Shown: positions 8,944 to 25,753 of the stretch, piece after piece
Position numbering within the stretch: the stretch's first letter is position 1
Layout of the letters: every line of letters starts with the position of its first letter
Origin: a virus
Virus record (IMG/VR): IMGVR_UViG_3300017752_005326
Location: 1 to 25,753 of that record
Length of the DNA stretch: 25,753 nucleotides
Direction: 5' to 3' (one strand)
Position numbers and translations under genes: made by a program
Notes under the pieces: generated by a model
Told to the model about the DNA's origin: nothing
Seen by the model: the letters and a program-made list of their open reading frames with translations, nothing else
The model's database searches: none

Positions 8944-8954
8944 ATAACTAATAT

Positions 8955-8966
8955 AGTAAATTTACT
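8955..8966. promoter_or_regulatory. 12-bp palindrome in the only gap of the enzyme block
   Basis: AGTAAATTTACT is a perfect palindrome in the 52-base gap between the SGNH gene at 8996 and the triple-fusion gene at 8943. This is the only intergenic space of note in the enzyme block. A second short inverted repeat (CTTCT/AGAAG) precedes it. It could be an operator or an A/T-rich chance palindrome; no protein is known to bind it. Confidence 0.3.
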
Positions 8967-8995
8967 TATAGTAGGCAACCTTCTAAGAAGTATTA

Positions 8996-9817
8996 TTAGA
9001 TAATTGGTTTATTTCTACCTTTACCTTTACCTTTACCTTTAGGATTGTTATAAGGGTCTTTATCGGGATTATCAGGAGACCAGTAAGGGAATACAAATGG
9101 ATCGTCCTTAAATTCTTTCTGCATCTCTGTATGTTCGCTATGGTAGTGGTTATGGTTTTCCCAAATATCTAGTATATGTTTAGAAAAGTCTTTATTCCCT
9201 TTGAAGCTCCAGTGCATATCATTTATGTCACCATTAGTAGCTTCTTTTATACTTTCAAAGTCAAACCAACTATTTGTATTATAAATAAATGATTTTTTGC
9301 AATTTATAGATTTCACAATATTTCCAACTATTGTGTTTGCAAATTGGAAATGTTCTTGAATAAATGGTTCAAGGCAGTTGATACTGTACTTTGTAACATC
9401 GTCAAAAAAATTAGGAGATATAAAATTTAATTCATTTCTTGTTCGCTTATCTTCTTTGCTCCAATGTGCATGCATACTTATTATATGTTCTAATGGATCA
9501 GGGTCGCCCAAATTGTTTTTTGGAATACGGTTTTTCTTAAAGCCTACTAATCTAAGTGCATCGCTCATACCTACTACAATGTAATCTTCAGGTTTAATAT
9601 TTTTTAACTGCTTAGATAAGTAGTATATTGTATGATAAGGACCAAAAGATGGTTTAGCATGATTAAATACCTCTAGTTTTAATTTCTTGCCTAAATGTAG
9701 TGAATAATGGTAATCTCCTTCTGTTTTATATTTATCGTAGTATGGTTCTCCAGCTATTGAAACTTCGCTTCCATAATCAAAAGAATCTCCAAACACCCAA
9801 AGTTTTCCTAAAGCCAT
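8996..9817 (-). CDS. SGNH/GDSL-like hydrolase with a KG-repeat tail
   Basis: This 273-residue protein has the block I motif FGDSFDYG (nucleophile Ser12) and a likely block V at residues 197-202 (DINDMHW, with Asp and His in D..H-like order). VVGMSDALRL near 81-90 sits where the oxyanion-hole block III would be. SGNH enzymes are esterases or acyltransferases acting on lipids, glycans or peptidoglycan. This one lacks a signal peptide, so it would act in the cytoplasm or in the virion. The C-terminus is low-complexity: about eight alternating K/G residues (260-267) encoded by a hexanucleotide repeat. It overlaps the aminotransferase gene by 10 bases. The substrate cannot be told, but deacylation or acylation of the sugar made by the neighbours is plausible. 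Confidence 0.72.
   Translation of the reverse strand: MALGKLWVFGDSFDYGSEVSIAGEPYYDKYKTEGDYHYSLHLGKKLKLEVFNHAKPSFGPYHTIYYLSKQLKNIKPEDYIVVGMSDALRLVGFKKNRIPKNNLGDPDPLEHIISMHAHWSKEDKRTRNELNFISPNFFDDVTKYSINCLEPFIQEHFQFANTIVGNIVKSINCKKSFIYNTNSWFDFESIKEATNGDINDMHWSFKGNKDFSKHILDIWENHNHYHSEHTEMQKEFKDDPFVFPYWSPDNPDKDPYNNPKGKGKGKGRNKPII
9016..9039. repeat. Four tandem TACCTT hexamers in the 3' end of an SGNH gene
   Basis: Four perfect copies of TACCTT on the plus strand (AAGGTA on the coding strand) encode the Lys-Gly repeat near the C-terminus of the SGNH-like protein. A change in copy number would keep the reading frame, so this could vary tail length but not switch the gene off. Confidence 0.9.
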
Positions 9818-10767
9818 TTATAGTCGTTTTTATTAGTTGTAATTTGTAACCTTACCCAATCTTCTTCGCTGCCTGGTACTTTACAGTTAGTCTTAAGTAT
9901 AATATCATTAGGTAAGTTAGAATGTGTTATATGAATCCAATTGCTGCTTCCATTAATATATGGAATATTTTTTTCTTTACATACTTTTGCAACATAAGAT
10001 CTAGTAATTTTTACTTTTTGAATATATTCTTCTACCTCATTATAACTATCTAAAATTAAATCTGCCCATTTGGCTGTCAATCCATTAATCTCAAACATAG
10101 GCCTGAATTGCTGAAGGAGTCTGATATTATCAGCACTAGCTGTAATAACTCCTAGCCTAATTCCAGCGCTGCCTAAGGCTTTTGAAAAAGTTCTACAAAT
10201 AAATAAATTATTAAAACTACTCAATAGGTCAGCTGAGCTTCTGCATTCTGAGAATTCTATATATGCTTCATCGATCAATGTAGGGATATTTTTCTCTAAT
10301 ACTTTACTAATAAATTCAGGTATTATTTCTTGACCCATTGGAGAAGTAGGATTAGTAATAATTACTATAGTGTCTTTATCTATATAGGATAAAAATTCTT
10401 TATAGGGGATAGAAGCAGAGGTCTGTTTAACTTTTACTACTTCATATCCGTAAACTTCACCATATACAAAGTACATAGGAAAGCAAGGATCAAATATTAC
10501 TAACTTAGAATGAGTTTTACAATGTGCTTGAATAAAGTACTCTATACATTTATCACTTCCGGTACCTAGAATTATATCTGAATAATTATAATGCTCTTTT
10601 AGTCGGGTGTATAAATTATTTAAATTAGGATAAAATTTAAGATCTGATTGGGTAATAGAGTCTTTAAATTTGTTAAATAACTTTTCGGACCAATCTTCAT
10701 TTCTTTCAGATGCCTGTAACCTAAGCATGTCTACTGGTATATCTTTATTTAATGCTCTTTTTATCAT
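9808..10767 (-). CDS. PLP-dependent aminotransferase, class I/II (HisC-like)
   Basis: This 319-residue protein has the fold-type I landmarks: FYPNLNNLYTRL (45-56), ILGTGSDKCIEYF (66-78), TNPTSPMG with Asn139, LIDEAYIEF with Asp166, CRTFSKALGSAGIRLG with the PLP-binding Lys196 and Arg204, and a C-terminal Arg near 306 (DWVRLQIT). The pattern is closest to histidinol-phosphate aminotransferases, which also include threonine-phosphate decarboxylase-like enzymes. It is a little short for the family (about 350). It overlaps the PhyH gene by 23 bases and the SGNH gene by 10, so it is coexpressed with surface-modifying enzymes rather than with histidine genes. It may supply an amino group or an amino alcohol for decorating the glycan; the substrate is unknown. 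Confidence 0.87.
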   Translation of the reverse strand: MIKRALNKDIPVDMLRLQASERNEDWSEKLFNKFKDSITQSDLKFYPNLNNLYTRLKEHYNYSDIILGTGSDKCIEYFIQAHCKTHSKLVIFDPCFPMYFVYGEVYGYEVVKVKQTSASIPYKEFLSYIDKDTIVIITNPTSPMGQEIIPEFISKVLEKNIPTLIDEAYIEFSECRSSADLLSSFNNLFICRTFSKALGSAGIRLGVITASADNIRLLQQFRPMFEINGLTAKWADLILDSYNEVEEYIQKVKITRSYVAKVCKEKNIPYINGSSNWIHITHSNLPNDIILKTNCKVPGSEEDWVRLQITTNKNDYKWL

Positions 10768-11542
10768 TTATTAAAAAATCTTTATAAATATTAGTATTAG
10801 TCAACTTATTAATTTTATCTTTAAAAAACTTTAATGCAAAACTAGTTCTGAATGAGGTGTATTCTTTAAATTTATCTTCATCAACTTTTCTATTCATTAT
10901 TCTTGCCTGTATAATTATAGATTTTCTGTCTGTAGCTGTGTTATTAGAACCTGAGCCGTGGACTAATAAATGGTCAAATATTAAACAGTCACCTGCTTTT
11001 AATTCAATGTTTTTAAAACGATTAGTTTTATTTAACTTATCTAATACCTCTTGTTTAATTTGTTTTTTATGATTAAAGTTATATCCTATAATGTCTTCGT
11101 GTTCTAATAGTCCGTATTTATGACTTCCCGGGGAAACAATTAGACAGCCGTTATCAATAGTATGATCATCTATAGCTATATAGACTTGTAAAAACTTATT
11201 AGAATCTTGTATCGAATATCCAGGAGCGAAAGTTTCAATAAGAGAGCTTTCCTGATGCCACTCTACTGGTGGTCCTATCCATTTAGATTTACTGTTAATA
11301 AGAAGGTGGTTAATAGTATAGTTATCCCCAATTATATTTGTTAAATGCTGTGTAAGAGCATCTCTCTTTAAGAAATAATTAAACCTACTATCTTTTATAA
11401 GGTTGCCGTACCCCCAAGGAGCATTACCGTTAGGTAACATTATTTTGGGAAGTAATTTACTAATATTGGAACGTATTTCTATTAATTCCTCTTCTGATAG
11501 TAGTTTCTTTATTTTAAGAAAACCGTTTTTAAAGTAGTTCAT
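10745..11542 (-). CDS. PhyH-family Fe(II)/2-oxoglutarate dioxygenase
   Basis: This 265-residue protein matches the phytanoyl-CoA dioxygenase family. The metal triad is likely His96-x-Glu98 (WHQE) and His195 (LLVHGSGSN), with Arg206 as the 2-oxoglutarate ligand. LQVYIAIDDHTIDNGCLIVSP (split around residues 118-137) is the typical core strand pair before the GSH turn at 139-141. Use of HxE instead of HxD is unusual but occurs in this superfamily. Bacterial PhyH relatives hydroxylate small molecules, amino acids, lipids or sugars. The gene overlaps the transferase gene upstream by 14 bases and the aminotransferase gene downstream by 23. The substrate is not evident; a hydroxylation step on a precursor or on the finished glycan is inference. 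Confidence 0.87.
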   Translation of the reverse strand: MNYFKNGFLKIKKLLSEEELIEIRSNISKLLPKIMLPNGNAPWGYGNLIKDSRFNYFLKRDALTQHLTNIIGDNYTINHLLINSKSKWIGPPVEWHQESSLIETFAPGYSIQDSNKFLQVYIAIDDHTIDNGCLIVSPGSHKYGLLEHEDIIGYNFNHKKQIKQEVLDKLNKTNRFKNIELKAGDCLIFDHLLVHGSGSNNTATDRKSIIIQARIMNRKVDEDKFKEYTSFRTSFALKFFKDKINKLTNTNIYKDFLINDKKSIK

Positions 11543-12443
11543 AATCTATACGTTTTACCAGCTCTGTATATAGGTCTTTACTTACATTATATGCGTGATT
11601 TATATCTAAAAGTCCATAAGTTAACCTATGGTCGTCTATAAATATACTTTCGAAATCTTTAATAGGATCTAAGTAAGAACAGTAATCTCTTAATATACAA
11701 TATACAAATGGGAGGTTAATAGGATTAATATTTTTTTCTAGTAGATATTTTGCAACGAAATTAAAATTAGTAGTGTTTTTACTTATATCATAATAATCCA
11801 TAAATATGTTCATGTTTTGAGAATTACCAGCAAAAAAAACATCATCAACTCTTTCATAATCTTTATCTATATTTTGAGGTATGTTTACTATTCCTAGATT
11901 GCTACTACTATTCATTAAATTATTCAGTTCATTATGTAAGGAAGATTTAGTATGGGAGGGTTTGAGAACTATGTCCGGTCTGGTGTTTATGACTAAGTCG
12001 TATTTAAAGTCGTTCTTTATCTCGTATTCTCTACGTAATTTATCTACTTCAAAAGCACTAATAAACTGTGGGTGAAATTTTAGATCCCAAACTCCATGCG
12101 ATGGGTCTGGTTTTATGATAAAATCTGATTTAAGGGCAAGATTACTTTCTAGATCTTCAAATTTTCCTAATTTAGGTTTATATACTTCTTTAAACTTTTT
12201 CTTTTTAGTATACAACAATTCCCAACTTCCTCTCTTATTTAGAGATGATATTATTTTAGTACCGAGATAAGCAGAAGTTTTAACAGGTATTATATCGGCT
12301 CCATTCTCAGTATTCCAGCAATGGTAAAAGTAATCGACGTTATATTTGGCTTCAAAATAATGTTCAAAAGTTTTTTTATTTTCAATGCCGGTGCGTAGCA
12401 TACCTCTTAAACAGATAGCCACTCTGGGTCTGTTATCTACCAT
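11529..12443 (-). CDS. Putative glycosyltransferase, 'GQ.R' paralogue 3
   Basis: This 304-residue protein shares three blocks with the proteins at 14133 and 14993: an N-terminal VAICLRGMLR strand-loop (8-17), DYFYHCW (37-43), and YDLVINTRPDI (148-158), preceded by a helix ending in REYEIKN. The first block fits a Rossmann-like nucleotide-sugar loop; the RPD acidic segment may bind metal or sugar. There is no signal peptide or membrane segment. The paralogues differ strongly outside these blocks, which suggests different acceptors or donors. In this copy the GQ of the loop is RG, so it is the most divergent of the three. A family name cannot be given; a transferase role is inferred from fold-like motifs and the glycan context. 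Confidence 0.55.
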   Translation of the reverse strand: MVDNRPRVAICLRGMLRTGIENKKTFEHYFEAKYNVDYFYHCWNTENGADIIPVKTSAYLGTKIISSLNKRGSWELLYTKKKKFKEVYKPKLGKFEDLESNLALKSDFIIKPDPSHGVWDLKFHPQFISAFEVDKLRREYEIKNDFKYDLVINTRPDIVLKPSHTKSSLHNELNNLMNSSSNLGIVNIPQNIDKDYERVDDVFFAGNSQNMNIFMDYYDISKNTTNFNFVAKYLLEKNINPINLPFVYCILRDYCSYLDPIKDFESIFIDDHRLTYGLLDINHAYNVSKDLYTELVKRIDYELL

Positions 12444-12445
12444 AC

Positions 12446-13255
12446 TTATAATTTATTTACTCTATTAATATGATTAATAACTGTTTCTGCTGCTTCTTTT
12501 TGACCTACTTCAGATGTATGCATAGAGGGCAAGGTATCGGGATACTTTAAAGCTAAATCTCCCCAACTTACTCTGACGTAATCTTCTACTGGTACTATAT
12601 CTTGAATTTCTTCTTTTTCCATTGCAAGTAGGACAGGGATGTTTGCTTTTTTAGCTTTTAAATAAGAAAGCAGTAAGCAACCTACATCTTGTTTTCTCTG
12701 TATCTGGATGTCACTTATTTTAAGGTAGTAATCTCTCAGTAGTAGTAACCTTTCATCATCTTCATTAAATTTTTTATAGTAGCTACCAGAAGTATCTTCT
12801 TTTTCTAGTAACCTATCAGTATATTCAATCACTCCGTGCCAGTTTTCTGTATTTAACGTACCTTTATATTTTGGATTGTTAATGTAGGGATGGGGTATAA
12901 TTTGATGGTAAGTTCCAGGTCCGTATGGAGGGTACTCATGGTAGTTTACATCTAAATTGCTTATTTGTACATTATCCCAAGAACCAGCTGCCCTTTTAAT
13001 ATGCTCCTTATATTTAAAGAAATTTGTACGGTGTTCACAAGTATCAGAGATAATAAGTAGATCTATATCTTTAATATTTTCTATAGCATAATCTGCTTGT
13101 AAAGCTATAGAGTAATTGGTACTGGATCCTTTAGCAAAATTTACTACTTCTCTGTTATATTCTTTTGATATAATAGGTCCCCAAGCATCATTTAGCAAAT
13201 CTTTTACCCCAATTCCTATAGAAAATGAATCGCCACATATTATTATTTTTCCCAT
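12446..13255 (-). CDS. SGNH/GDSL-like hydrolase or acyltransferase
   Basis: This 269-residue protein has block I IICGDSFSIG with nucleophile Ser10 and a late block V-like SMHTSEVGQ with His246. The central LLIISDTCEHRTNF is in the block III region. FAKGSSTNYSIALQ (near 59-72) has the Gly/Asn-type block II feel. It has no signal peptide. It lies in tandem with another SGNH gene (11-base gap) between two putative transferases, an arrangement typical of O-acetylation or deacetylation of surface glycans. It differs from its neighbours at most positions, so the two are not a recent duplication. The reaction direction (esterase or transferase) cannot be told. Confidence 0.7.
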   Translation of the reverse strand: MGKIIICGDSFSIGIGVKDLLNDAWGPIISKEYNREVVNFAKGSSTNYSIALQADYAIENIKDIDLLIISDTCEHRTNFFKYKEHIKRAAGSWDNVQISNLDVNYHEYPPYGPGTYHQIIPHPYINNPKYKGTLNTENWHGVIEYTDRLLEKEDTSGSYYKKFNEDDERLLLLRDYYLKISDIQIQRKQDVGCLLLSYLKAKKANIPVLLAMEKEEIQDIVPVEDYVRVSWGDLALKYPDTLPSMHTSEVGQKEAAETVINHINRVNKL

Positions 13256-13266
13256 ACTAGTTAGAT

Positions 13267-14136
13267 TTATTTACTTCTTATTATATTCTCTTTAAGGTAT
13301 CTAGCTATTTCTTCTGCCCAAATTTTATGTGCTTCTGGGTTAGGGTGAAGTCCGATATAAGGGGATTTAAGATTATTCTGTATAAACTCATTAAAAGTAC
13401 TTACAGTTTCATTTTTTCTATAAAAATTAGGAGTTTTAATTTGGTCCCAAGATTTTTTCCAATCAAAAGTTTTAATTGAACGTTCCTTAGTAGTCTCGCT
13501 ATCTATACAGTACCCTACTTCAGTTAAATTATCGATCAATTCAGTAAGATCTTGATTCCATGTACTGACATGTGAATCTTTAAACTGGTAAAATGAATTG
13601 TAAATTAAGTATTTAATATTATTTGCTATACAAAAATTTTGTAATGCTAAATTATCCATAACGTACCTAGACATGTATTCTTCTGGGTTCCATAAATACT
13701 TAACGTAAAGTTTCCAGAATTTCTTTTGATCAGGATGTACGAAGTGTTCTATATGTGGCCATAACCTAAAGGTGTGACTGTTAGGTTTACCCTTCCACCA
13801 CCAACTGTTTCGTTCAGGAGAAGACCAGCCTACTATTACTATCAACTCTTCTGTAGATTTACCTGTAGATAGATATTCCTGTGTTACATAGTCTATAGTT
13901 CTCTGCAGTATAGATTTATTATCATCGGCTGGCCAAGCTAAATTTACTGTATCACAATTTAAATACTCTTTTATATAGGTAGGCCATATTCTGCTGGTTC
14001 TGTATTTAATGTTTTCTTCTAGGTAATCATACTCACCTGCATACACATCAGGTGGATACTTAGCAGTTAAAACTGGATCTACTATCTCACATCCGAAAAC
14101 CCAAGAGTCTCCGTTACAAACTAATTTATATTTCAT
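13267..14136 (-). CDS. SGNH/GDSL-like hydrolase or acyltransferase
   Basis: This 289-residue protein has block I VCNGDSWVFG with nucleophile Ser11, a central LIVIVGWSSPERNSWW likely containing the block III region, and a C-terminal GLHPNPEAHKIW (H264 to H270) that fits block V. The segment AWPADDNKSILQRTIDYV (near 67-84) resembles the block II Gly/Asn region. No signal peptide is visible. It shares ATGA with the upstream transferase gene and precedes a second SGNH gene. Proteins of this type are found in many phage and bacterial glycan clusters. A role in adding or removing acyl groups on the glycan is inference. Confidence 0.72.
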   Translation of the reverse strand: MKYKLVCNGDSWVFGCEIVDPVLTAKYPPDVYAGEYDYLEENIKYRTSRIWPTYIKEYLNCDTVNLAWPADDNKSILQRTIDYVTQEYLSTGKSTEELIVIVGWSSPERNSWWWKGKPNSHTFRLWPHIEHFVHPDQKKFWKLYVKYLWNPEEYMSRYVMDNLALQNFCIANNIKYLIYNSFYQFKDSHVSTWNQDLTELIDNLTEVGYCIDSETTKERSIKTFDWKKSWDQIKTPNFYRKNETVSTFNEFIQNNLKSPYIGLHPNPEAHKIWAEEIARYLKENIIRSK

Positions 14137-14996
14137 TGTATATAAAATTCTTTACTAAGTTCTACTAATTCATGATAGTTTTCCTCATAGTTTAAATTTA
14201 AATCCAAAGCAGATTTTCTTACTACTGAAAAACTATAAGGCTTATGTACTGATGTAGTATCAATATTTACTTGATGCAAATACCTAGTCATTAAAGTTCC
14301 CGGTCCAAGATGTTGCTCAGGAGATATATTGGAAGTATCACCTGGTATGTAATTGTAAGAAGGGTAAAAGCCTTTGAATCCAGCATAGGAATATAAATTA
14401 GCTGCTGTATTCATTGTGGCTGAGTCTCCCATATAGGCTACGTCATCGGTATTCGAAACAAATAATTCTCTTTCTAACTTACTGTAATGGCCTAAAGTGT
14501 ATATAGTCCTATGTTGTATTTGACTGTTATCATAGTTCATTTTGCTGCTTGGTGGAAATATAATGTCCGGTCTTGTCCTTATCACCAAGTCGTAAGTAAA
14601 CCTATTTTCGTTTTCAAAATCGCATTTCATTTTATTAACTCTGTAGCTAGAGTATAAAATAGGTCCCCATATATTGTGAGGGTTTACTTTTTCAAATTGC
14701 TCTACTTTTAAACCCTTTAAAGATTTTAATTTTTTTTCTATATACTCCCTTTCCACAAATGCAGGTTCAAGGTCTGTAATATACCTAGGCATAGTTTTCT
14801 CTATGCTGGTATTTAGCCATAGGTTTACATCCCAAGTATGCATAAAATAATCCACCTCAATTTCCACGCCTCCATTTTCAATTGAAGAAAAAGTTGGGCT
14901 AAAAAAAGATTGTATAGAGGGTAGGCATATTTTATAAGTTCTAGATTGTCCAGCTAGCAGTACAGCTACTTTGTATTTGGTCTTGTTATATTTCAT
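14133..14996 (-). CDS. Putative glycosyltransferase, 'GQ.R' paralogue 2
   Basis: This 287-residue protein has VAVLLAGQSRTYK (10-22), VDYFMHTW (48-55) and YDLVIRTRPDIIFP (135-148), the last being the clearest version of the shared acidic block. A GDSATM segment near 200 and PEQHLGPGTLM near 245 complete the C-terminal half. It is related to, but well diverged from, the genes on both sides of the SGNH pair. It overlaps the first paralogue by 4 bases and the SGNH gene by 4. No membrane segment or signal peptide is present, so it should act in the cytoplasm. I infer a GT-A-like transferase, but the donor and acceptor are unknown. Confidence 0.6.
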   Translation of the reverse strand: MKYNKTKYKVAVLLAGQSRTYKICLPSIQSFFSPTFSSIENGGVEIEVDYFMHTWDVNLWLNTSIEKTMPRYITDLEPAFVEREYIEKKLKSLKGLKVEQFEKVNPHNIWGPILYSSYRVNKMKCDFENENRFTYDLVIRTRPDIIFPPSSKMNYDNSQIQHRTIYTLGHYSKLERELFVSNTDDVAYMGDSATMNTAANLYSYAGFKGFYPSYNYIPGDTSNISPEQHLGPGTLMTRYLHQVNIDTTSVHKPYSFSVVRKSALDLNLNYEENYHELVELSKEFYIQ

Positions 14997-15844
14997 AAAC
15001 TTAAAATATTTTTAGAACCTATATCACACCCATAAGGATTTTTTTCATACGATTTCAAATTACTGAAGTAGCTATTACTTCTTGCTACTTTCGAATCAGC
15101 CTGTATAGAGTTAATAGTCAAAAACATAGTCTGTAGATACAAGCTGAAAAGAAGGTGAGGTGGAGAATTTTTTGGGTTATTACCTGATACCTCATATACA
15201 TAAGGTAAGTAATCTACGTATTGACTTATAATATCATATGTGACTGAATCGCTATAAAAAAGTATATCTCCTACCGTTACAAAGGGTAAATTTTCTATTA
15301 CATTAGTATGTGTAGAGTGTATATTAAATGGTTTTGGTTTTTTTAATTCATAATGAAATAAAAGAATATCGTTAAGGGTAAAAAAAGAATCATATCTCAT
15401 TCTGATTACAATATCGTAAATAAAACCATTCTCTATTTCATATGCAGATTTTAGTTCTCCTGCTTTTTTTATACCGTAATATTGAGGAGCTAACCAGTCT
15501 GGAGTTCCAAAGCTTTCTACATCTTTTTTTCTATGGTTTACTATTTGTCTTAACACTCTAGTAGACATACTTTCGCTCATTTCTCTATCTTCTAATACAA
15601 AACTAATAGGATTGTAAGATTCGAATAATTCAGCTGTCTCTTCTTCCTCTATGAGTGTATGTTCATAAATCTCTCCTTTAGAAGTAGTAACTACATGATT
15701 GGAGGTAGTATTAAAATTCCATGCATGCATAAATATATCAGGAGGTGTATCAAATTCCGATATGAATTTCTTAATAGATGGTAAAGCAATTTTCCAAGCT
15801 CGGGGTTGACCGCTAAAACATATAGCTACTTTAAGGTTGGACAT
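14993..15844 (-). CDS. Putative glycosyltransferase, 'GQ.R' paralogue 1
   Basis: This 283-residue protein starts MSNLKVAICFSGQPRAWK, has PDIFMHAW (35-42) and YDIVIRMRYD (143-152) after a helix KSAYEIENG. The C-terminal half contains VGDILFYSDS, where the paralogues have similar small-residue turns. It is the first of three related genes in the block, lying 5 bases after the LamG-like gene and overlapping the next paralogue by ATGA. The RPD seen in the others is RYD here, a possible specificity change. No secretion signal is visible. The transferase role is inferred from Rossmann-like N-terminal motifs and context. Confidence 0.6.
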   Translation of the reverse strand: MSNLKVAICFSGQPRAWKIALPSIKKFISEFDTPPDIFMHAWNFNTTSNHVVTTSKGEIYEHTLIEEEETAELFESYNPISFVLEDREMSESMSTRVLRQIVNHRKKDVESFGTPDWLAPQYYGIKKAGELKSAYEIENGFIYDIVIRMRYDSFFTLNDILLFHYELKKPKPFNIHSTHTNVIENLPFVTVGDILFYSDSVTYDIISQYVDYLPYVYEVSGNNPKNSPPHLLFSLYLQTMFLTINSIQADSKVARSNSYFSNLKSYEKNPYGCDIGSKNILSL

Positions 15845-15849
15845 AACGT

Positions 15850-16596
15850 TTAATCATTAAACCACAAAGGGTCGTATTTTATTATATTATTTTTATTACT
15901 TGAATAATCCTTAACTTTGTAAGGAGTGGTTTCAGTAAAATCTGAAGAAAAAATAACTGATTCTGAGTCTTCTCCATATAAATAGGTTTGTTTAAATTCT
16001 TCATAGTTATCAAATAAGGAATCTAAATCAGCTTTTCCCATAAGTTTATTTTGTATATGTAACTTACTTATGTCCCCAATAAAAATGCTTGCATAATCTT
16101 CATCATACCCTTCTTTACCTTTGCCTAAATTATTACCACATCCAACCCATTTTAATGACTTTTCATAATCTATAAGATGACTGTATGGGGCTGAAATTTT
16201 ATCTCCAGAAACATTAACGTAGAATTTTGAATTAAATCTAGAAATAGTTACTTTAAATACTAAATGTTTATCTGGGATTAGTGGCACGTCTATGGTTTTT
16301 TGTATAGTTCCTTCAGGTTGGTGTTCCCACCATTGGTATGAAAGGTAGAAGAACATATTACTGTTCCCATCCATTTTTGCAGAAACAAAAACTCCTTGAT
16401 GCATTCCTGTTGCTCCTACTATACATCCGTTATAAAACTTAGACTGAGTAACTTTACTTCTAATAGCTTCATAGTCAGGGGCTACGACCAATGCAATAAT
16501 GGATTCATCTTTAAATATTTGATCATAATTACGTTTAATCAGGTCATACTTATTATCTATACTAAATAAGTATGTATTATTTTTATCTATTCTCAT
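15850..16596 (-). CDS. Free-standing LamG/concanavalin-A-like protein
   Basis: This 248-residue protein looks like a beta-rich LamG-type sandwich. It has alternating hydrophobic strands such as FFYLSYQWWEHQPEG, HLVFKVTISRFNSKFYVNVSGD and ASIFIGDISKLHI. The pattern of a short 'N..FYVNV.G' strand and a later 'I.IGDI' strand is seen in LamG proteins and in the LamG-like parts of the two GT7 genes here. It has no obvious catalytic motif, signal peptide or collagen-like repeat. It overlaps the radical SAM gene by one base (start at its stop), so it could be a carbohydrate-binding partner of that enzyme or a virion protein. A second, lone domain of the fibre type is the main alternative. Confidence 0.6.
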   Translation of the reverse strand: MRIDKNNTYLFSIDNKYDLIKRNYDQIFKDESIIALVVAPDYEAIRSKVTQSKFYNGCIVGATGMHQGVFVSAKMDGNSNMFFYLSYQWWEHQPEGTIQKTIDVPLIPDKHLVFKVTISRFNSKFYVNVSGDKISAPYSHLIDYEKSLKWVGCGNNLGKGKEGYDEDYASIFIGDISKLHIQNKLMGKADLDSLFDNYEEFKQTYLYGEDSESVIFSSDFTETTPYKVKDYSSNKNNIIKYDPLWFND

Positions 16597-18014
16597 TACT
16601 TTAAAGTTAAACAGTGTTCATAAAAATCTACTAATTCAGGAAAAGTATTCTTTATATCAGTTCCTCTTCTTCTGTCATGTTCCTTAAAAAACCTACCGAA
16701 GTTGCGTCTTTGAACATGTACTTTTTCTTCTTTTTTAAATTTAGAAGTCATCCAATCATAAGACCTTTTTAATTTCTGGATCTCTACATCTGAGTATCCT
16801 ACTAGGTTTTCATGGAATTTAGGTGCTGCTAAAAAATCCATCTCTGCTATACTATCCCAGAGTACAGGTCCCCATATCTTATCATCAAGTATCTGTATTG
16901 TTTGATGAGCAGGATGACGTAAGTAGGAGGTATCTAAAAATACAGCGGATTTCCAATATCTGTCGTTTGATGCATATTCTAATTTAAGGTTATGTACGTT
17001 AGTAACTAACTTTTTGTAATTTGGAACGGATAAAGCATTAAAGGTAGACATTATAGTAACATTTACTCTAGGGCATTGAGTTAGTACTTTGTTCATATTA
17101 TCCCACATCTTATTAAACACTAAACCGTCTCTAATATACTCTGCCTGTTCACCCCATGTATCAACAGATGTAAATAAAATAAATTCTTTTACAAGTCCTC
17201 TGTCTTCTATTATTTTAATTTTTTCAATTAATTTATCTACTAGGTTATCTGGTATACCTAAATTAGAGTTAATTGCAAGATTTAATTCTTTGTTTGGTTT
17301 ATCATGCTCTATTATATAGTCTAGAACTTTCCATGTGTCTTTAGAAAGCAAAGGTTCTCCTCCTGTAATTCTGAATGTATGTAAATCTCTATACAAGTAT
17401 GGCCACCATTCCCAAAATGCATCTACGTAGGGATTGTGATCTTTGTGGTGTATAGGCATTTTGTTTTCAGACTTCAGCCTACTTATATCGTTAAATTTAT
17501 CATCAGTAGGGTATGCGCCGTATTTTTCTGCTTCTTGTGCCCAGGAAGAGGAGAAGGATGGACCACAGTAAGAACATTTAAAATTACAAGCATTAGAAAA
17601 AGCTACCTCTATGTAAGTAGGGTTAATATCTTCTCTCCAATTACTGTTAGCTATTTTATCAAAATGCGGTAGAGACCAAGATTCGTTGGATTTAAATACT
17701 CTGTCTGAGAATTGTTCTGAGTTATCTTCTACATTCCAGCAGTAATTACATTCTTTAGGTCTCTTACCTTCTAGCATTTCTTTCCGTTTTAATTTCTTAA
17801 AACGAGTATTGTGAAGTGCTGATGGATTATACTTTATTTCAGCTAAAGGTATTTTATGTGTAGCAGGGTGATGACATGAATGAGTTTGGCCCATCTGTAA
17901 ATGTACTGTTGCTTGTGTCCATTTTGCAAGGCACATCCCACAGCCTACTTTATCTAACTTTTCTTTAGTGTTTCTGTATACATCCTCTTCTCTAATAATC
18001 TCTGTTTTTTTCAT
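16596..18014 (-). CDS. Radical SAM enzyme with extra cysteine clusters
   Basis: This 472-residue protein has the radical SAM motif CNFKCSYC (Cys143, Cys147, Cys150) after a beta strand ending FSNA, and the SAM-binding FRITGGEPLL (214-223). Upstream lie CGMC (25-28), SCHHP (Cys47) and CNYCW (89-93), which could ligate a second Fe-S cluster. The arrangement resembles 'twitch'-domain or SPASM-like radical SAM proteins reported in phages, though here the extra cysteines are N-terminal. It has no signal peptide. Radical SAM proteins of this kind make difficult changes to sugars or peptides, such as epimerisation, dehydrogenation or cross-linking. The block context favours a sugar or tail-protein modification. 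It overlaps the GT7 gene upstream by 4 bases (ATGA). Confidence 0.9.
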   Translation of the reverse strand: MKKTEIIREEDVYRNTKEKLDKVGCGMCLAKWTQATVHLQMGQTHSCHHPATHKIPLAEIKYNPSALHNTRFKKLKRKEMLEGKRPKECNYCWNVEDNSEQFSDRVFKSNESWSLPHFDKIANSNWREDINPTYIEVAFSNACNFKCSYCGPSFSSSWAQEAEKYGAYPTDDKFNDISRLKSENKMPIHHKDHNPYVDAFWEWWPYLYRDLHTFRITGGEPLLSKDTWKVLDYIIEHDKPNKELNLAINSNLGIPDNLVDKLIEKIKIIEDRGLVKEFILFTSVDTWGEQAEYIRDGLVFNKMWDNMNKVLTQCPRVNVTIMSTFNALSVPNYKKLVTNVHNLKLEYASNDRYWKSAVFLDTSYLRHPAHQTIQILDDKIWGPVLWDSIAEMDFLAAPKFHENLVGYSDVEIQKLKRSYDWMTSKFKKEEKVHVQRRNFGRFFKEHDRRRGTDIKNTFPELVDFYEHCLTLK

Positions 18015-19363
18015 AACTCTATATTAAGCATTTTAGCCCAAGGTGTTAATTTTTGCTCACTTATTAAATTATACTCTACTTGTTTTATACCGTCTTCTTT
18101 ATAGTCAATCTTTCCTTGTTGCATATTTAAAACATACCTTCTTTCATTAGCAGCGGTAGTTTCACCTTTTGACCATTTGCCGTTTACTAGTCCTTCATCT
18201 TCATGAGGTAGGCAGCGGAATTTACCTTCTCTACGGTGAGGTATAATAGCATTGTAGAGTAGCATGTCTTCCTCTACTGTTTCTACATTTTCACTTATTA
18301 TATTAGTATTTTCTGAAAGTTTAAATACAGTATCTTCTTTGCTTTTTATAATTACCTCTCCTATACCACCTTTAAACCTCTTACCTGGGTAGTCTTCTTC
18401 GAAAGTAGGAGTGTATCCTAAAAATATATCGCTTTCTTTATACTTAGTACTTAGTTTACCATTATAGACTAGTGGGGAAGGAGTACCGTGTCCAAGATCT
18501 ACATCTGCTTCGACGCCGTTTACAAAAAAGTTTACAGTTTTATTACGCGGGTGAAACTTAACAGTAAGCCAAGTCCATTGATTAGCATATCTTTTTATCC
18601 ACATGTAATTATGTTGATGAAAAGTATTAAAAAACTGAACAGTCATAGCCCTGGAGTTATTGAATGATAATCCAAAGTCTTCTCCAGGAATTCTAAATAT
18701 AGGATATTCAAAAAACTTAGCATTTCTATCTCCTATAAGATGTATCTGGGCTTTATCTTGCTGATGTTCTGCTTTGGTAAGTACTGATATTTCAAATTCT
18801 CTTTGGAAGAATCCTTTTGGTAGTACCTCTTTAGGTATTGTTACTTTAGAATCTTTACCGTTAAAGTATAAATGGGTAGGATAAGTAGGTAAATCACTAT
18901 AAGTAGCGTTTGTCATACCTTCCAAGTGACATCTCCAGAAAAGATCATCGTCTTCCATACCCCAATCCCAATACTTATTCGAATAACCATTAGTTGCTTC
19001 AACCTGCTCTCTACTAAATAGAACTGCTCCACCAAAATATTCAAAATACTTTAGTTTATAGTCCATTTGTGATATTTGAGTAGCTAGATGTATTGGATTC
19101 TCTGCAGGGAAGGAGTAATCAGCATTTTCTTCTGGAATCATATCAATATCATGCCATACAATATAATCACACCCCTCTTCAAAAGCATGTTTAGCAGCTA
19201 TATTTTTCATAGCACCTCTATTGAATAGTTTGTCATCTACTTGATGAGCAAAATACATTTGAAAATCTATTCCAGCATTTTTTAAATATTTTCCTACTTT
19301 AGGAATAAATTCATTTAGATGCATTTCCCTATTTCTATATGGTACACAGACTCCTAACTTCAT
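18011..19363 (-). CDS. GT7 (beta-1,4-galactosyltransferase-like) enzyme with internal LamG-like domain, copy 2
   Basis: This 450-residue protein begins with VCVPYRNREMHL, has FNRG (47-50), the metal-binding HDIDMIP (Asp74), YFGG (109-112), and YWDWGMEDDDLFWR (131-144), all in the order of metazoan beta-4-galactosyltransferases. At about residue 165 a LamG-like beta-rich region begins (FEISVLT, TWLTVKFHPRNKTVNFFVNG, FKGGIGEVIIKS). The GT7 C-terminal part then resumes at IIPHRREGK, where His376 fits the metal-ligand His of the galactosyltransferase (MIRHSR region), and continues to DGIKQVEYNLI, which fits the DGLNSLTYQV segment. So the LamG-like domain sits inside the catalytic domain. Expected to transfer a sugar, probably galactose or GalNAc. 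Shares ATGA with its paralogue. Confidence 0.9.
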   Translation of the reverse strand: MKLGVCVPYRNREMHLNEFIPKVGKYLKNAGIDFQMYFAHQVDDKLFNRGAMKNIAAKHAFEEGCDYIVWHDIDMIPEENADYSFPAENPIHLATQISQMDYKLKYFEYFGGAVLFSREQVEATNGYSNKYWDWGMEDDDLFWRCHLEGMTNATYSDLPTYPTHLYFNGKDSKVTIPKEVLPKGFFQREFEISVLTKAEHQQDKAQIHLIGDRNAKFFEYPIFRIPGEDFGLSFNNSRAMTVQFFNTFHQHNYMWIKRYANQWTWLTVKFHPRNKTVNFFVNGVEADVDLGHGTPSPLVYNGKLSTKYKESDIFLGYTPTFEEDYPGKRFKGGIGEVIIKSKEDTVFKLSENTNIISENVETVEEDMLLYNAIIPHRREGKFRCLPHEDEGLVNGKWSKGETTAANERRYVLNMQQGKIDYKEDGIKQVEYNLISEQKLTPWAKMLNIEL

Positions 19364-20604
19364 ACTCCTACTTTTAAGTGGGTTGATATCCCTTTTTTTT
19401 CTTTTTTATGTAATTTATATTTTAAATTAGATAATCCCTCATATTCTTGTTCGTTAGTATTAAGTAAAACTTCATTATTGAAGCGAAGTTGGTTCCAACG
19501 GGTCAAATCATTTTGCCATACCCCATCTTTGAATCCTAAGTCGGGGTGATAAAGTTTTTCTACTTTACCCTTTCTTCTGTGTGGTATATAACTAAAATTA
19601 AATGAATCTTGATTGAGCACCTTATTGTCTATATTAGCTTCTTTGTAAAGAACTGTGATATCTTCTTTGTATTTGTTTAAAAATTTAACTGAATCTATGG
19701 CTCCTTTAAATTTATGTTTTTTGTTATGGTCTGATCCAATATTAATGTATTTAGTTTTATTGTAGTTAAAAATGGGGTTATCTAAGATTTGTTCTCCTAC
19801 TAATTCCCCATTTACATACATTTTAATTGTTTTTGACCTTGAAAAATACTCTATGTTAATAATAAAGTTTCTAAGATCAGATACATTAGAATATAAAGTG
19901 TACATTTTATTAGCTTTGTCAAAAACCTCTAAATAAAACCTTTTAAATGAAGTATACTTTAACTTAAAATCACACCCTTCTATATTGAAAACAACAAAAT
20001 CATCTTTTTGAGTATCATGATTATATATAACTTCTCCTACCCTTAATTTAATTTCTACTTTAAAATCTCTAACTACAGTAATAGTGTTTTTAAATAACAT
20101 ATAACTATTAAACCCATTGAATATGGAGGTTGGTGTATTAGGAGGTGAATAGGTTTCTTTTATAGGTATAAGATCTAGCTCATTTTTAATACACCTGTAC
20201 CTTAAATCGTCATCTTCGAACCCCCATCCCCAATATTTATTAGAAAAACCATTTATTTTTTCAAATTGGTCTGTAGGGAATAATGTTATACCTCCAAAAT
20301 AGCTATCAAAAGGTAGATTTTCAGATATTAAATGTACGGGGTGTTCGCAATAAGAATAATCTATATCTAAAGGTAATATATCTACATCATGAAATACTAT
20401 ATGGGTGCAGTTTTGTTCCTTAGCTTCTAAAAAACCAACATTACATAATTTTCCTCGGTTAAAAGCCTTAGCATTATCTTGCTCTACTATAATTAAAGTG
20501 TAGTCGTAGTTATTTTTATTAAGGTATTCTACTATATGCTTTTTAAAGAGTTTATAATGTTCCCACCTATCTCGAAAAGGTACAACTATACCTACTTTAC
20601 TCAT
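19360..20604 (-). CDS. GT7 (beta-1,4-galactosyltransferase-like) enzyme with internal LamG-like domain, copy 1
   Basis: This 414-residue protein matches galactosyltransferases even more closely than its neighbour. It has VVPFRDRWEHYK (8-19), FNRGKLCNVGF (48-58), FHDVDILP (71-78), YFGG (102-105), and NGFSNKYWGWGFEDDD (118-133). A LamG-like insert runs from about 155 to 335 (FKVEIKLRVGEV, IEYFSRSKTIKMYVNGELVG, FKGAIDSVKFLN). The GT7 C-terminal part resumes at YIPHRRKGK (His342) and GLSNLKYKLHKKEKKG. The DVD and the His would bind the metal, and the EDDD holds the catalytic acid of the family. It overlaps the 58-residue gene upstream and its paralogue downstream by ATGA. The two copies are clearly related but diverged, suggesting different donors or acceptors. 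Confidence 0.9.
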   Translation of the reverse strand: MSKVGIVVPFRDRWEHYKLFKKHIVEYLNKNNYDYTLIIVEQDNAKAFNRGKLCNVGFLEAKEQNCTHIVFHDVDILPLDIDYSYCEHPVHLISENLPFDSYFGGITLFPTDQFEKINGFSNKYWGWGFEDDDLRYRCIKNELDLIPIKETYSPPNTPTSIFNGFNSYMLFKNTITVVRDFKVEIKLRVGEVIYNHDTQKDDFVVFNIEGCDFKLKYTSFKRFYLEVFDKANKMYTLYSNVSDLRNFIINIEYFSRSKTIKMYVNGELVGEQILDNPIFNYNKTKYINIGSDHNKKHKFKGAIDSVKFLNKYKEDITVLYKEANIDNKVLNQDSFNFSYIPHRRKGKVEKLYHPDLGFKDGVWQNDLTRWNQLRFNNEVLLNTNEQEYEGLSNLKYKLHKKEKKGISTHLKVGV

Positions 20605-20773
20605 CTTTATTTAAAGGATCTACATAATTTTGTTTCCAAAGATCTAAATACCAAGCTATTCTTTCTCCCCATTCTTCTTTATCCACTTCCTCAAACCATA
20701 GAGTTAATGCATCTAAGGAATCTGCTATCTTTTCTAGTGATTTTACTTTACGTTCTTCTAATTCTTTACTCAT
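20597..20773 (-). CDS. Small acidic helical protein (58 residues)
   Basis: An ATG at 20773 opens a 58-codon frame ending at TAA 20597-20599. The protein starts MSKELEERKVKSLEKIADSL, continues DALTLWFEEVDKEEWGERIA, and ends with a Trp-rich helix (WYLDLWKQNY). Its ATG overlaps the stop of the GT upstream (ATGA) and its stop overlaps the ATG of the GT7 gene downstream, so translation coupling is likely and the frame is probably real. It has no catalytic or zinc motif. It could be an adaptor or regulator for the enzymes on either side. I do not recognise a family. Confidence 0.75.
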   Translation of the reverse strand: MSKELEERKVKSLEKIADSLDALTLWFEEVDKEEWGERIAWYLDLWKQNYVDPLNKDE

Positions 20774-21609
20774 ATTGTAACTATTTTATTTCTCAATTTA
20801 CTCCAGTGTGTATAATCATTATAATTAATATAAGAAAATTCTTTTAATTCTTCAACTAAATACTCAGAATTAGTAATATCTATTTTCCAATCTGATGATC
20901 TTATAGCTTGGTACATTTTTTCATACTCTTTAGAGTAGGAATACTCCTTTTTAACATCAGCTACCTTTTTTATCCTTTCGATACAGGTAGAGTCCCACTT
21001 AAAGTGGTGTACTTGAGTAAAACATTCTTCTACCGGCATTCGTAATGGGTGTTCTTTCCCCCAACTTGTCATATTATTACCTAAATCTACATAATGCTGA
21101 CCGGGGGTTACATCTATGTTTCCTTTCATTAAGGTTACCTTACTAGGACATGCACCAGACATGGGATATCGAAAGAAACCAGCCAGTGGAAATGCTTTAT
21201 GTATATCTGTCTCTCTACTTACTTTAGGAAATATACCATCTTTACCTATGCGATCTATAAACCCACCGGTAACAAAGGAATAACCATGTTTATCACAGTG
21301 TTTAATGATATTATCTACATTCTCTGGGTATACTTGTAGTTCGTCATCGTCAGATACTATCCACCAGTCGTTAGGTTTAGTTATTTTAATAGAATTATAA
21401 ATTTCTGTTACTCTTTTCCAGTTATATTTATTTTCTGTAAATACCATATATGGTTCTATACCTAAGTCTTGTATTTCCTGTAGTATTGTATCATTATCTG
21501 ATTGTCTATAAACAGCTACATATACTTTATCCACTATATTTTCATAGTGTTTAAGCATATGAGGTAGAATATGTGTATTCTCACCAACTACTGTTACTAA
21601 ATTAAGCAT
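20770..21609 (-). CDS. Glycosyltransferase, GT2/GT92-like
   Basis: This 279-residue protein has an N-terminal NLVTVVGENTHILPHMLKHY (3-22), the GT-A nucleotide-sugar strand, and WWIVSDDDELQVYP (82-95) with the acidic DDDE (87-90) that binds metal and donor. VHHFKWDSTCIERIK (about 201-215) has the C-terminal HHF-type feature of GT2/GT92-like enzymes. There is no membrane segment, so it is a soluble transferase. It overlaps the methyltransferase gene by 8 bases and the 58-residue gene by 4. The sugar and acceptor cannot be told, but it is one of the clearer transferases of the block. Confidence 0.82.
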   Translation of the reverse strand: MLNLVTVVGENTHILPHMLKHYENIVDKVYVAVYRQSDNDTILQEIQDLGIEPYMVFTENKYNWKRVTEIYNSIKITKPNDWWIVSDDDELQVYPENVDNIIKHCDKHGYSFVTGGFIDRIGKDGIFPKVSRETDIHKAFPLAGFFRYPMSGACPSKVTLMKGNIDVTPGQHYVDLGNNMTSWGKEHPLRMPVEECFTQVHHFKWDSTCIERIKKVADVKKEYSYSKEYEKMYQAIRSSDWKIDITNSEYLVEELKEFSYINYNDYTHWSKLRNKIVTI

Positions 21610-22378
21610 GTTGTAATATTGTTAAGCCAGTTGAACTAGGTTTTGTTCTATGTATACCGTTATTGAATAGATTAAATAGGTTCCATTCTTTATTCTCTTT
21701 TAATTCAGCTATAAACTTTGATGGACCGTTATTAAATGTATCAAAATGGTTTTGATCAGCAATATCCTTACTTACTATATAGTCTTTAGAGTAAGATATA
21801 TCAGTATCGTGAATAGATATAATACCTTTATCAGATAATAGCTTACTATATAGTTCAAAGTCCTGTTTAATATCTTCATATGAATGTCCTGCATCAATAT
21901 GTAAGTAATCGATCTTAATATCCTCTTTTACAAAGAAGTTGTAGTAAGCTTTTTCAGTAGTTTCGTTGATAATACGCGGACAGAACGTTTTTCTAAAGAA
22001 AGAATCAGGATCTAACCAGTCAACATGTCCTCCTACTTCATTAGCAGCATCTACCACTACTGTAGTCCCTATATCTCCCCAATTGTAGTCGTTATCCCCT
22101 TCAAATATACCTTGTTCATGCAAATCCATCCTAGCTTTAGTCATTATCCGGGGTATAAAGCCACCTCCTGAACCTAAACATACGCATACCTTAGCTCGCA
22201 TGTACTGAATAAATGAGTATATTAGTAATCCGTCTCCTAAATCGTTATCCGTAGCTCCATGAGTCCATCTATAGTTAACTGGAATGCTTTCTAAGTATTT
22301 ATTACCATTAGTGTCAATACTTTCTTTAGTATTATTGGTAATGTTATGTTTAATATAGTTTTTATCTAATATACTCAT
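21602..22378 (-). CDS. SAM-dependent methyltransferase (class I, Methyltransf_24-like)
   Basis: This 258-residue protein has a Rossmann-type SAM loop VCLGSGGGFIPRIM (66-79), a long insert, then YLHIDAGHSYEDIKQDF (158-174) with the acidic/His segment typical of sugar-cluster methyltransferases, and IISIHDTD (186-193). It resembles the cephalosporin-hydroxylase-like or Methyltransf_24 type of O-methyltransferase. No membrane or secretion signal is present. It starts within a base of the upstream transferase stop and overlaps the GT2-like gene by 8 bases. O-methylation of the glycan being built, as in capping of phage or capsule sugars, is the likely role but remains inference. Confidence 0.8.
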   Translation of the reverse strand: MSILDKNYIKHNITNNTKESIDTNGNKYLESIPVNYRWTHGATDNDLGDGLLIYSFIQYMRAKVCVCLGSGGGFIPRIMTKARMDLHEQGIFEGDNDYNWGDIGTTVVVDAANEVGGHVDWLDPDSFFRKTFCPRIINETTEKAYYNFFVKEDIKIDYLHIDAGHSYEDIKQDFELYSKLLSDKGIISIHDTDISYSKDYIVSKDIADQNHFDTFNNGPSKFIAELKENKEWNLFNLFNNGIHRTKPSSTGLTILQHA

Positions 22379-23964: not shown

Positions 23965-24477
23965 TTACTCTTTTTTTATTTCTATATCAGGAAAAGTATT
24001 CAAAAGTTCTTCCTTAACTTTATTGTAACAGAATCCAAATATGTCTTTCTGTATAGCATCTAAAGCTGGTATTGAATATTCTTTTTCTTCTTCTCCTATT
24101 TTAATATTCTTCTCTATTTCTACTTCTCGATACTTAGTAATTTCTTCACCTTCTTCGTCGAAACTAACATAAGGAACGTTCTCTTTTACTAGTCCTTTAG
24201 TATAAATAGGCTCTTTGATCAGTACTTTTTGAGTTAGATCTAGCTTTAAAACCGAAGGCAGTCTAAGTTCTTTACCTTCTGGGTTTTCATCGTTATATAT
24301 AATTATTTCATATGAAATACTGTCTACCGGTTCAGTTTTTTCTAAATTACTATAGTAGCTCAAGCTAATAATTACTCTATTAACTTCTTTTTGAATAGTT
24401 ATTTGACTTATTCTACAGTATATAGACTTAGTTGAACCTTTTACAGTATCTGTATCTAAATTAAATAGTAATCCCAT
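23965..24477 (-). CDS. Protein of unknown function next to the fibre genes
   Basis: This 170-residue protein has an N-terminal beta-rich half (SIYCRISQITIQ, VNRVIISLSYYSNLEK, YEIIIYND) and a charged, glutamate-rich C-terminal half ending FPDIEIKKE. No domain, catalytic motif, signal peptide or membrane segment is recognisable. It starts within the stop of the LamG-like gene (TAATG) and lies one base before the adhesin-like gene, so it is probably made with the virion surface proteins. A fibre connector or chaperone role is possible but not supported by motifs. Confidence 0.7.
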   Translation of the reverse strand: MGLLFNLDTDTVKGSTKSIYCRISQITIQKEVNRVIISLSYYSNLEKTEPVDSISYEIIIYNDENPEGKELRLPSVLKLDLTQKVLIKEPIYTKGLVKENVPYVSFDEEGEEITKYREVEIEKNIKIGEEEKEYSIPALDAIQKDIFGFCYNKVKEELLNTFPDIEIKKE

Positions 24478-25238
24478 TATATATATCTTGTTTTAGATGA
24501 ATTATATACCTGGTATATTTCGGAATCCGTCAAAACCTTTTCATAGTACATAAATTGATTTAAATCACCTGCCATATTTCCATATGTATTAGTCCAACTT
24601 CCCCACCTCATAGTACCCGATCCATCAGGGTTATCATGGGATGAATTTGAATTTCCTGTTTGCTTTAAAACTCCGTCTATATAAAATTTTGTTGTTTGAA
24701 CTCCCACATCAGGACCAGTAGTAGTATAAGCTCTCATATGCCAATTTCCATCATTTGCACCATGGTTGCTAATGGTAGAAAAACCATTGGTACCACCTGC
24801 ATCAGAATAGTTAAGTACTCCGTGACTAGCAGAAGTACCACTGGGTGACATATAAAAAGAAGTTCGTCCATTAAAACCTCCGCCGTATATATTCTCTGAT
24901 TGCTGTCCTGAATTGTCAAATTTAAACCATGATATAACAGTATAGGAGTCGACCCTATCTACATTGACATTACCTCTCCAGGTAGTATCCCTATTGACTG
25001 AACCTGCATAGGCATTGTGTCTCAATACTAAGTTACCTTTATGACTTACAATGTCTTGATAGTCTGATGAAGCTACGTCGTTGTAAAAATGTGCAATTGT
25101 ATAATCTGTAATAAGATTATATAACTTTGTACTAGAAGGTAATCCTGTATCTACAACTGCTGCTTGATAACATTTTGGGTTAGCTACATCAATTAATACC
25201 TTTAGTTCGTCAAGTGGTATAGTAGGTCCTGTATACAT
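24477..25238 (-). CDS. LamG-like tail surface or fibre protein
   Basis: This 253-residue protein starts TGPTIPLDELKVLIDVANPK, similar to the first repeats of cyanophage and other phage fibre-type LamG proteins. It contains the beta-sandwich pattern YTVISWFKFDNSGQQSENI (near 134-152), FYIDGVLKQTGN, and GTMRWGSWTNTYGNMAGDLNQFMYYEK near the end. LamG domains in phages bind glycans or calcium and occur in fibres or tail appendages. It has no catalytic motif. It is coupled by TAATG overlaps to the partial LamG gene upstream and the unknown gene downstream. It is a candidate ligand-binding part of the virion. Confidence 0.7.
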   Translation of the reverse strand: MYTGPTIPLDELKVLIDVANPKCYQAAVVDTGLPSSTKLYNLITDYTIAHFYNDVASSDYQDIVSHKGNLVLRHNAYAGSVNRDTTWRGNVNVDRVDSYTVISWFKFDNSGQQSENIYGGGFNGRTSFYMSPSGTSASHGVLNYSDAGGTNGFSTISNHGANDGNWHMRAYTTTGPDVGVQTTKFYIDGVLKQTGNSNSSHDNPDGSGTMRWGSWTNTYGNMAGDLNQFMYYEKVLTDSEIYQVYNSSKTRYI

Positions 25239-25753
25239 TATAATCCGAATCTTGATTTATGTGCTAAGAAGTTTTGAGCTGCTTCTGCTGCGTTTAATTT
25301 TTTATTATAAAAGTAAATTGGCCCCATATATCCTGACCATTCACTACTAGTAGTATATCTTGTACCAATTCTATAGTTTATGCCAAAATCTTCATCTGGT
25401 GAGGATGATGTTGATAATACTACCTCTACTCCGTTTATATATAATTGTGAACCAGTACTATCAGAAGTAGCAACTATATGTATCCATTTATTAATAAAAG
25501 CAGTTGCCCCCGAATTATAAGAACCTTCAAAATTATATCTTAAATTATTTGTCCAATTTATATTATAACTTGAATAATTTGATAAAAACCAAGCTCCACT
25601 GTTGTTTCTTCCATCTGTTATATATTGAGTAGCAGAAGAGTTTTTGTAGAGCCACATAGAGATTGCTGAAGATGTTGTACTTCCTAAATTTCCATCTATA
25701 TTTATTCCCTTACTTCCAACAAAGTCAAATACCCCGCCTTTTGTAGAATTATA
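25238..25753 (-). CDS. LamG-like tail surface protein, C-terminal part (5' end beyond the window)
   Basis: The frame is open from the last base of the window to a TAA at 25238-25240, giving 171 residues with no start needed. An internal Met at 25657 is not the real start, because the frame continues upstream with good coding residues (VFDFVGSKGINIDGNLGS). The visible part has ISMWLYKNSS, then FLSNYSSYNINW, then NKWIHIVATSDSTGSQLYINGVEV, a textbook LamG core with the YING turn, and ends with FNYRIGTRY-type and YFYNKKLNAAEAAQNF segments. It continues directly (overlap by one base) into the next LamG-like gene. Its size and N-terminal role cannot be told. Confidence 0.7.
   Translation of the reverse strand, partial: YNSTKGGVFDFVGSKGINIDGNLGSTTSSAISMWLYKNSSATQYITDGRNNSGAWFLSNYSSYNINWTNNLRYNFEGSYNSGATAFINKWIHIVATSDSTGSQLYINGVEVVLSTSSSPDEDFGINYRIGTRYTTSSEWSGYMGPIYFYNKKLNAAEAAQNFLAHKSRFGL

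Follow-up and report, generated by a model that had tools for sequence, protein, structure and literature searches.

The eukaryotic beta-1,4-galactosyltransferases (B4GALTs) of glycosyltransferase family 7 (GT7) are Golgi type II membrane proteins. Two of them, B4GALT1 (PDB 1fgx, 2ae7 and 6fwt) and B4GALT7 (PDB 4irp and 4lw3), share a GT-A core, the DxD, YFGG, W(G)WG-x-EDDD, N..R-F and DGL..L.Y motifs and the C-terminal histidine (C-His) with the two virus-encoded proteins described here, A and B, with 30-38% identity over the first ~150 residues. Unlike A and B, they are without a domain between the xED helix and the C-His. The same core, again with LamG absent, is found in insert-free GT7 proteins from a Halieaceae MAG (L050), an Alphaproteobacteria MAG (L071) and a viral contig (L213), which also share 'R.G.F..L.H..(N/G)G' and 'DGLS.L.F' with A and B.

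Lectin domains of glycosyltransferases usually lie at protein ends. The polypeptide GalNAc-transferases of GT27 resemble A and B in joining a GT-A enzyme to a lectin domain, but their lectin is of the ricin type, has an unrelated fold and forms a separate C-terminal module outside the catalytic core. GT27 belongs to a GT-A clade related to GT7 (PMC7185993). The Laminin_G_3/ConA-like domains of phage virion proteins and stand-alone LamG genes have the same beta-sandwich fold as the domain in A and B; they are, however, free-standing or part of structural proteins, whereas in A and B the domain lies within an enzyme core. With regard to gene context, the nearest described system is the host recognition cluster of pelagimyophages, in which cassettes of glycosyltransferases and radical SAM proteins lie among the tail genes of T4-like marine phages (PMC7029224). 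The cassette around A and B resembles this cluster, but LamG-bearing enzymes are not mentioned in that paper (PMC7029224), and the tail sheath encoded on the same virus fragment as A and B is nearest to that of a Flavobacterium phage. In the literature that we searched, mostly open access, we found no description of LamG together with galactosyl- or other glycosyltransferases in phages, nor of lectin domains inserted in glycosyltransferases, in agreement with the original prediction, which knew of no described example. As far as this literature shows, A and B represent a real, widespread and undescribed domain architecture in a known enzyme family, and they offer a microbial GT7 pair for enzymology.

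The gene pair and its catalytic residues

Both genes lie on a 25.7-kb virus fragment (25,753 nucleotides, called the window below). They are arranged head to tail with B first, their open reading frames overlap by 4 nt, and coordinates and strand are as originally predicted:

18011-19363 (-), gene A (450 aa), GT7 glycosyltransferase interrupted by a LamG-like domain
18899-19363 (-), A residues 1-155, N-terminal GT7 core (Pfam and PDB matches; Foldseek to B4GALT1)
18248-18898 (-), A residues 156-372, LamG/ConA-like insert (absent from insert-free GT7s; Foldseek; Laminin_G_3 in relatives)
18014-18247 (-), A residues 373-450, C-terminal GT7 core (tail scoring, conservation, predicted secondary structure)
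18203-18205 (-), A H387, predicted metal-ligand C-His (conserved in 68/68 A-type proteins; aligned to B4GALT1 'MIRH')
19360-20604 (-), gene B (414 aa), GT7 glycosyltransferase interrupted by a LamG-like domain
20164-20604 (-), B residues 1-147, N-terminal GT7 core (Pfam and PDB matches; Foldseek to B4GALT1/7)
19591-20163 (-), B residues 148-338, LamG/ConA-like insert (Laminin_G_3 above cut-off; Foldseek)
19363-19590 (-), B residues 339-414, C-terminal GT7 core (excised-insert alignment, conservation, tail shuffle control)
19546-19548 (-), B H353, predicted metal-ligand C-His (conserved in 84/87 B-type proteins; aligned to B4GALT1 'MIRH')

Pfam confirmed the GT7 identity of both proteins: within their N-terminal ~150 residues they match Glyco_transf_7N and 7C (E 6e-16 to 3e-20), and the 7C model spans only the part before the insert. 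A phmmer search of the PDB retrieved B4GALT1 and B4GALT7 (E 1e-23 to 1e-28) with matches that end near residue 140-154. The proposed "metazoan-like" character is overstated: the B4GALTs (34-38% identity) are more distant than insert-free bacterial GT7s, most of which share 37-51% identity with B in the N-terminal part.

Closer inspection revealed the expected catalytic residues in both proteins. The N-terminal part of A carries PYRNR, FNRG, D72-I-D74, YFGG and the xED residues E137-D138, and its C-terminal part IIPHRR, GKFRCLPH with H387, N406..R409-Y410 and DGI..V.Y; in B, the DxD is formed by D73/D75 and the xED by E130-D131, followed in the C-terminal part by H353, N371..R374-F375 and EGLSNLKY. 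Furthermore, both retain the Trp of W(D/G)WG, and the N..R-(F/Y) motif lies near the acceptor pocket. The Tyr of YFGG is kept in all 68 A-type and all 87 B-type proteins and the Arg of FNR in 67/68 and 85/87, respectively. Exceptions occur among the B-type proteins, three of which have lost the C-His, while 6-7 of the 87 have Asn in place of an xED-region Asp.

The original prediction had assigned the metal-ligand role to the His of IPHRR, and this assignment has to be rejected on grounds of conservation and of the alignment through the excision junction (see below): no more than 35 of 68 A-type and 24 of 87 B-type proteins have His at this position, with Tyr and Phe as common replacements, whereas the Pro and the first Arg of the motif are invariant. 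The C-His is instead the His of the motif that follows, which reads 'GKFRCLPH' in A and 'GKVEKLYH' in B and in both aligns with 'GRCRMIRH' of B4GALT1, so that H387 and H353 correspond to B4GALT1 H347. In B4GALT1, the other metal ligand is M344. The equivalent position is Cys in 65/68 A-type proteins (C384 in A, 18212-18214, -) and variable in the B type; A and B may therefore differ in metal preference or coordination. Some GT-A enzymes bind their metal through this C-His (PMC7185993).

Two positions bear on the donor. The YFGG Tyr of A and B occupies what we take to be the position of B4GALT1 Y289 on the donor side, a residue that favours Gal over GalNAc. The FNR Arg is at the position of R228 of bovine B4GALT1, where the exchange R228K moves donor use from Gal to Glc (PMC7185993). 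Conservation of both residues is consistent with UDP-Gal as the donor and, since catalytic as well as donor-side residues are kept in both proteins, UDP-Gal transfer is the best guess for A and B alike. Judged from these residues, A and B are most likely both active UDP-Gal transferases.

The LamG-like domain within the catalytic core

In both proteins, the GT7 core is interrupted by a LamG/ConA-like domain of ~190-220 residues. An insert had been proposed at residues ~160-360; it is present, with bounds refined to ~156-372 in A and ~148-338 in B. Three lines of evidence place it, as had been claimed, inside the catalytic fold and not at its end. First, bacterial loci were scanned with an HMM built from 66 insert-bearing relatives, and the insert-free bacterial GT7s matched it in two blocks, model positions ~2-153 and ~386/391-455 in most; in a few, the second block is shorter and starts at ~409-431. 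The insert-free phage protein L213 and human B4GALT1 likewise matched in two blocks. The blocks are contiguous or nearly so in the insert-free proteins, whereas a gap of ~235 model positions separates them in the phage family. Second, excision of the insert raised the phmmer score of A against B4GALT1 chain 1fgx from 92.7 to 101.6 bits and that of B against chain 6fwu from 102.8 to 110.6 bits, and the alignment to B4GALT1 passed through the junction in both cases, the outcome predicted for a split core. Third, an HMM of the phage C-terminal part was used to score the C-terminal tails of 20 insert-free GT7s (18 bacterial proteins, the viral protein L213 and human B4GALT1) along with 200 shuffles of each, and none of the 200 shuffled tails equalled the real score in any of the 20. 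A chance occurrence or misreading of the C-terminal motifs is excluded by this control.

The spacing between xED and C-His illustrates the interruption. It amounts to ~27 residues in insert-free GT7s, e.g., 'EDTDLHRRCLRAGLAIDHRDGTYQPLPH', whereas the corresponding stretch of A reads 'EDDDLFWRCHLEGMTNATY [LamG] IIPHRREGKFRCLPH'. The predicted insertion point is after the xED (catalytic-base) helix, just before the segment with the putative metal-binding C-His. A contiguous catalytic core, which is no formal GT7 criterion, is absent from A and B; the interruption makes them a variant of GT7 and not nonmembers.

AlphaFold2 models, computed from alignments of 107 (A) and 117 (B) sequences, reached a mean pLDDT of 96.1 and 92.5, respectively, with a pTM of 0.90 each. 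As anticipated for a GT7 enzyme, the N-terminal ~150 residues matched the GT-A fold of B4GALT1/7 with a Foldseek probability of 1.00 (A versus B4GALT1: rmsd 1.2-1.4 over ~151 columns; B versus B4GALT1/7: mostly 1.4-2 over ~152 columns), but most local alignments end near residue 152, and the C-terminal part was compared with GT7 by sequence and secondary structure only. This part is predicted to form a strand, a helix and two strands (in A, 381-384, 401-416, 432-440 and 443-449, respectively), which we take to be the order expected of the C-terminal part of B4GALT1. Homology, secondary structure and pTM together suggest that the C-terminal part packs on the glycosyltransferase core.

The LamG-type nature of the insert, also part of the original prediction, is borne out by fold and profile matches. 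In Foldseek searches of the PDB, the insert of A matched the LamG domain of PAPP-A (E 4e-8), pentraxins and laminin LG4-5, and that of B matched neurexin LNS (E 5e-7), laminin LG5 and sialidase CBM40. Laminin_G_3 scored above the Pfam cut-off in B and below it in A (15.3 bits), and it was found in 24/31 A-type and 34/35 B-type relatives. The two inserts are homologous (hhalign P 99.9%, E 7e-31, 190 columns), so that both paralogues indeed carry the same domain. Conservation is lower in the insert than in the N- and C-terminal core (0.55 versus 0.79/0.68 in A; 0.47 versus 0.70/0.51 in B), which fits a variable specificity domain and equally a passive one. Nevertheless, the insert of A has near-invariant polar and aromatic positions (N235, N236, S237, Y253, W255, K257, R258, W263 and N282), and either an acceptor role or a role in assembly or anchoring would explain them.

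Genomic setting and proposed function

A and B are embedded in a cassette of genes on the same strand:

16596-18014 (-), twitch-domain radical SAM protein downstream of A, 4-nt overlap (NF033640, E 7e-102)
20770-21609 (-), GT2-like glycosyltransferase preceding B (match to Glyco_tranf_2_4 below the cut-off, E 4e-5)
21602-22378 (-), methyltransferase-like protein (Methyltransf_24)

Homologues of the radical SAM, GT2-like and methyltransferase-like proteins occur in 166, 170 and 157 related loci, respectively. The order in many loci is w23965 - w23262 - DUF6734 - methyltransferase - GT2-like - B - A - radical SAM (- LamG-like gene); the radical SAM gene directly follows A in the commonest orders, and further copies of it follow in many related loci. 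The cassette sits among the tail genes of T4-like phages. Of the large contigs (115-289 kb), 11 were tested, and every one has a related tail sheath as well as the tandem pair. In the window, tail sheath (66% identity), tube and baseplate hub match Flavobacterium phage immuto, whose stretch before the sheath has LamG-type structural proteins and a tail fibre gene; no B-A-type cassette was found in that stretch. Two LamG-type proteins adjoin the cassette in the window (24477-25238 and 25238-25753, both -), and the second, which is partial, resembles the immuto structural protein at the corresponding place. On the other side, 5151-16596 (-) is densely packed with small-molecule and glycan genes, including a nucleotidyltransferase with a mannose-6-P isomerase-like cupin, a PhyH dioxygenase, a DUF6071 protein and, by eye, SGNH-like and aminotransferase-like proteins.

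GT-A enzymes vary at HV1-HV3. HV3 is the tail that follows strand beta8 and takes part in acceptor binding, also in B4GALT1 (PMC7185993, PMC7948508). As we read the alignment, the chain departs into the LamG domain at the proximal edge of HV3; this position would put the domain on the acceptor side, where it could select or position the glycan acceptor, and makes the original suggestion that it may hold the growing acceptor a reasonable one. We therefore lean, with modest conviction, toward a competent GT7 pair whose LamG domains select or position the acceptor and which acts with its neighbours on a surface glycan. A and B would be inverting, metal-dependent UDP-galactose transferases of a tailed, T4-like phage. 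Their chain would exit the GT-A fold, form the lectin-like domain and return with the metal ligand and a helix/strand tail. The two enzymes would act together as a translationally coupled pair and, along with the GT2-like, radical SAM and methyltransferase neighbours, may build or cap a surface glycan. The target could be an envelope polysaccharide of the host, whose receptors would thereby be changed and other phages excluded, or a glycan that decorates tail proteins of the phage itself. A lectin domain built into the catalytic core suggests built-in choice or holding of the substrate, and the pair is a natural test of whether HV3 of GT-A enzymes can take up a whole domain and thereby alter acceptor choice.

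The main rival to an acceptor role is assembly or anchoring, in which the LamG domain mainly joins A to B in a heterodimer or tethers them to the virion or membrane and has little to do with the acceptor. We regard this as possible rather than probable. The genes are nearly always paired and translationally coupled, and LamG domains are common in virion proteins such as the two that adjoin the cassette and those of immuto; yet the insert sits at the edge of the acceptor-determining HV3 and not at a terminus, and the near-invariant residues in A look more like a ligand site than a spacer, although an interface could account for them equally well. A more specific version of the acceptor role, which we put forward only tentatively and consider rather doubtful, is that of an acceptor clamp. 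Because the catalytic base precedes the domain and the metal-ligand His follows it, glycan binding might order the C-His segment, which by analogy adjoins the mobile long loop of B4GALT1; transfer would then be conditional on an existing chain, and A and B would alternate.

It is unlikely that one of the paralogues is a catalytically dead or regulatory partner. Conserved tandem paralogues are a common setting for subfunctionalised subunits, and the B-type exceptions at the C-His and xED would fit; both copies in the window, however, have the DxD, xED, glycine-loop Tyr and C-His, which are nearly invariant in both clades. Very improbable is an N-terminal GT7 fragment followed by LamG and an unrelated tail, despite the early end of most Foldseek alignments and of the 7C match, because the tail matches those of all 20 insert-free GT7s in the shuffle control, the excision carries the B4GALT1 alignment through the C-His, and the order of secondary structure elements is as expected.

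In sum, we favour the acceptor-directed pair. The findings also indicate that GT7, best known from animals, is a regular part of the probable surface-glycan kit in many aquatic T4-like phages.

Spread of the pair and origin of the insertion

Scans of IMG/VR found 335 stretches that encode relatives of A and 353 that encode relatives of B, two sets that overlap because A and B are homologous; among the 351 full-length members counted are redundant loci as well as six Azospirillum fusion proteins that are insert-free. The kept loci contain 117 distinct B-A tandems, 103 of which have an overlap of -4 or -1 nt. The B-A pair is a widespread module of large marine tailed phages. The search for the same insertion elsewhere was thus successful in IMG/VR, but A, B and an insert-free GT7 as queries matched none of 50,697 phage records in the deposited collection, at the sensitivity of that search. 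An oddity or assembly chimera specific to the window is excluded, since the same single reading frames occur on many independent contigs. A bacterial host gene was also rejected: the insert-bearing "bacterial" records (L047-L049 and L053) are MAG contigs, and the MAG of L047 also has the tail sheath and the radical SAM gene, so that its record is likely binned phage DNA; L049 and L053 may have the same origin.

For the phylogeny, a core alignment was built by explicit splicing of the core blocks. Both clades were coherent (SH-aLRT 98 for A and 77 for B). In the tree from the free quick search, the insert-bearing cores did not group together (4 changes for "free" rows). A tree constrained to unite them in one clade nevertheless had a score 35 log units better and was compatible with the data (not rejected, p-AU 0.96). 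Together with the homology of the inserts, this favours the original view that the insertion predates the divergence of A and B: one insertion of a LamG-type beta-sandwich, before the duplication, would be the simplest history, with deep branches weakly supported.

Some further observations concern relatives of the pair. Two contigs encode a third, divergent GT7-LamG paralogue upstream of the pair (L023, 4110-5600; L025, 4168-5649), in which the Arg residues usual for the PYRNR motif are missing. In several Azospirillum genomes (L059-L066), an insert-free GT7 ends a longer reading frame, possibly a fusion or an over-long ORF call. The GT7 insert HMMs also pick up stand-alone LamG genes of related loci, with E-values down to 1.5e-11. 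In the window, the gene after the radical SAM gene (15850-16596, -) had no significant profile match and appears by eye to encode a divergent stand-alone LamG protein; a gene of this kind is a possible source of the GT7 insert.
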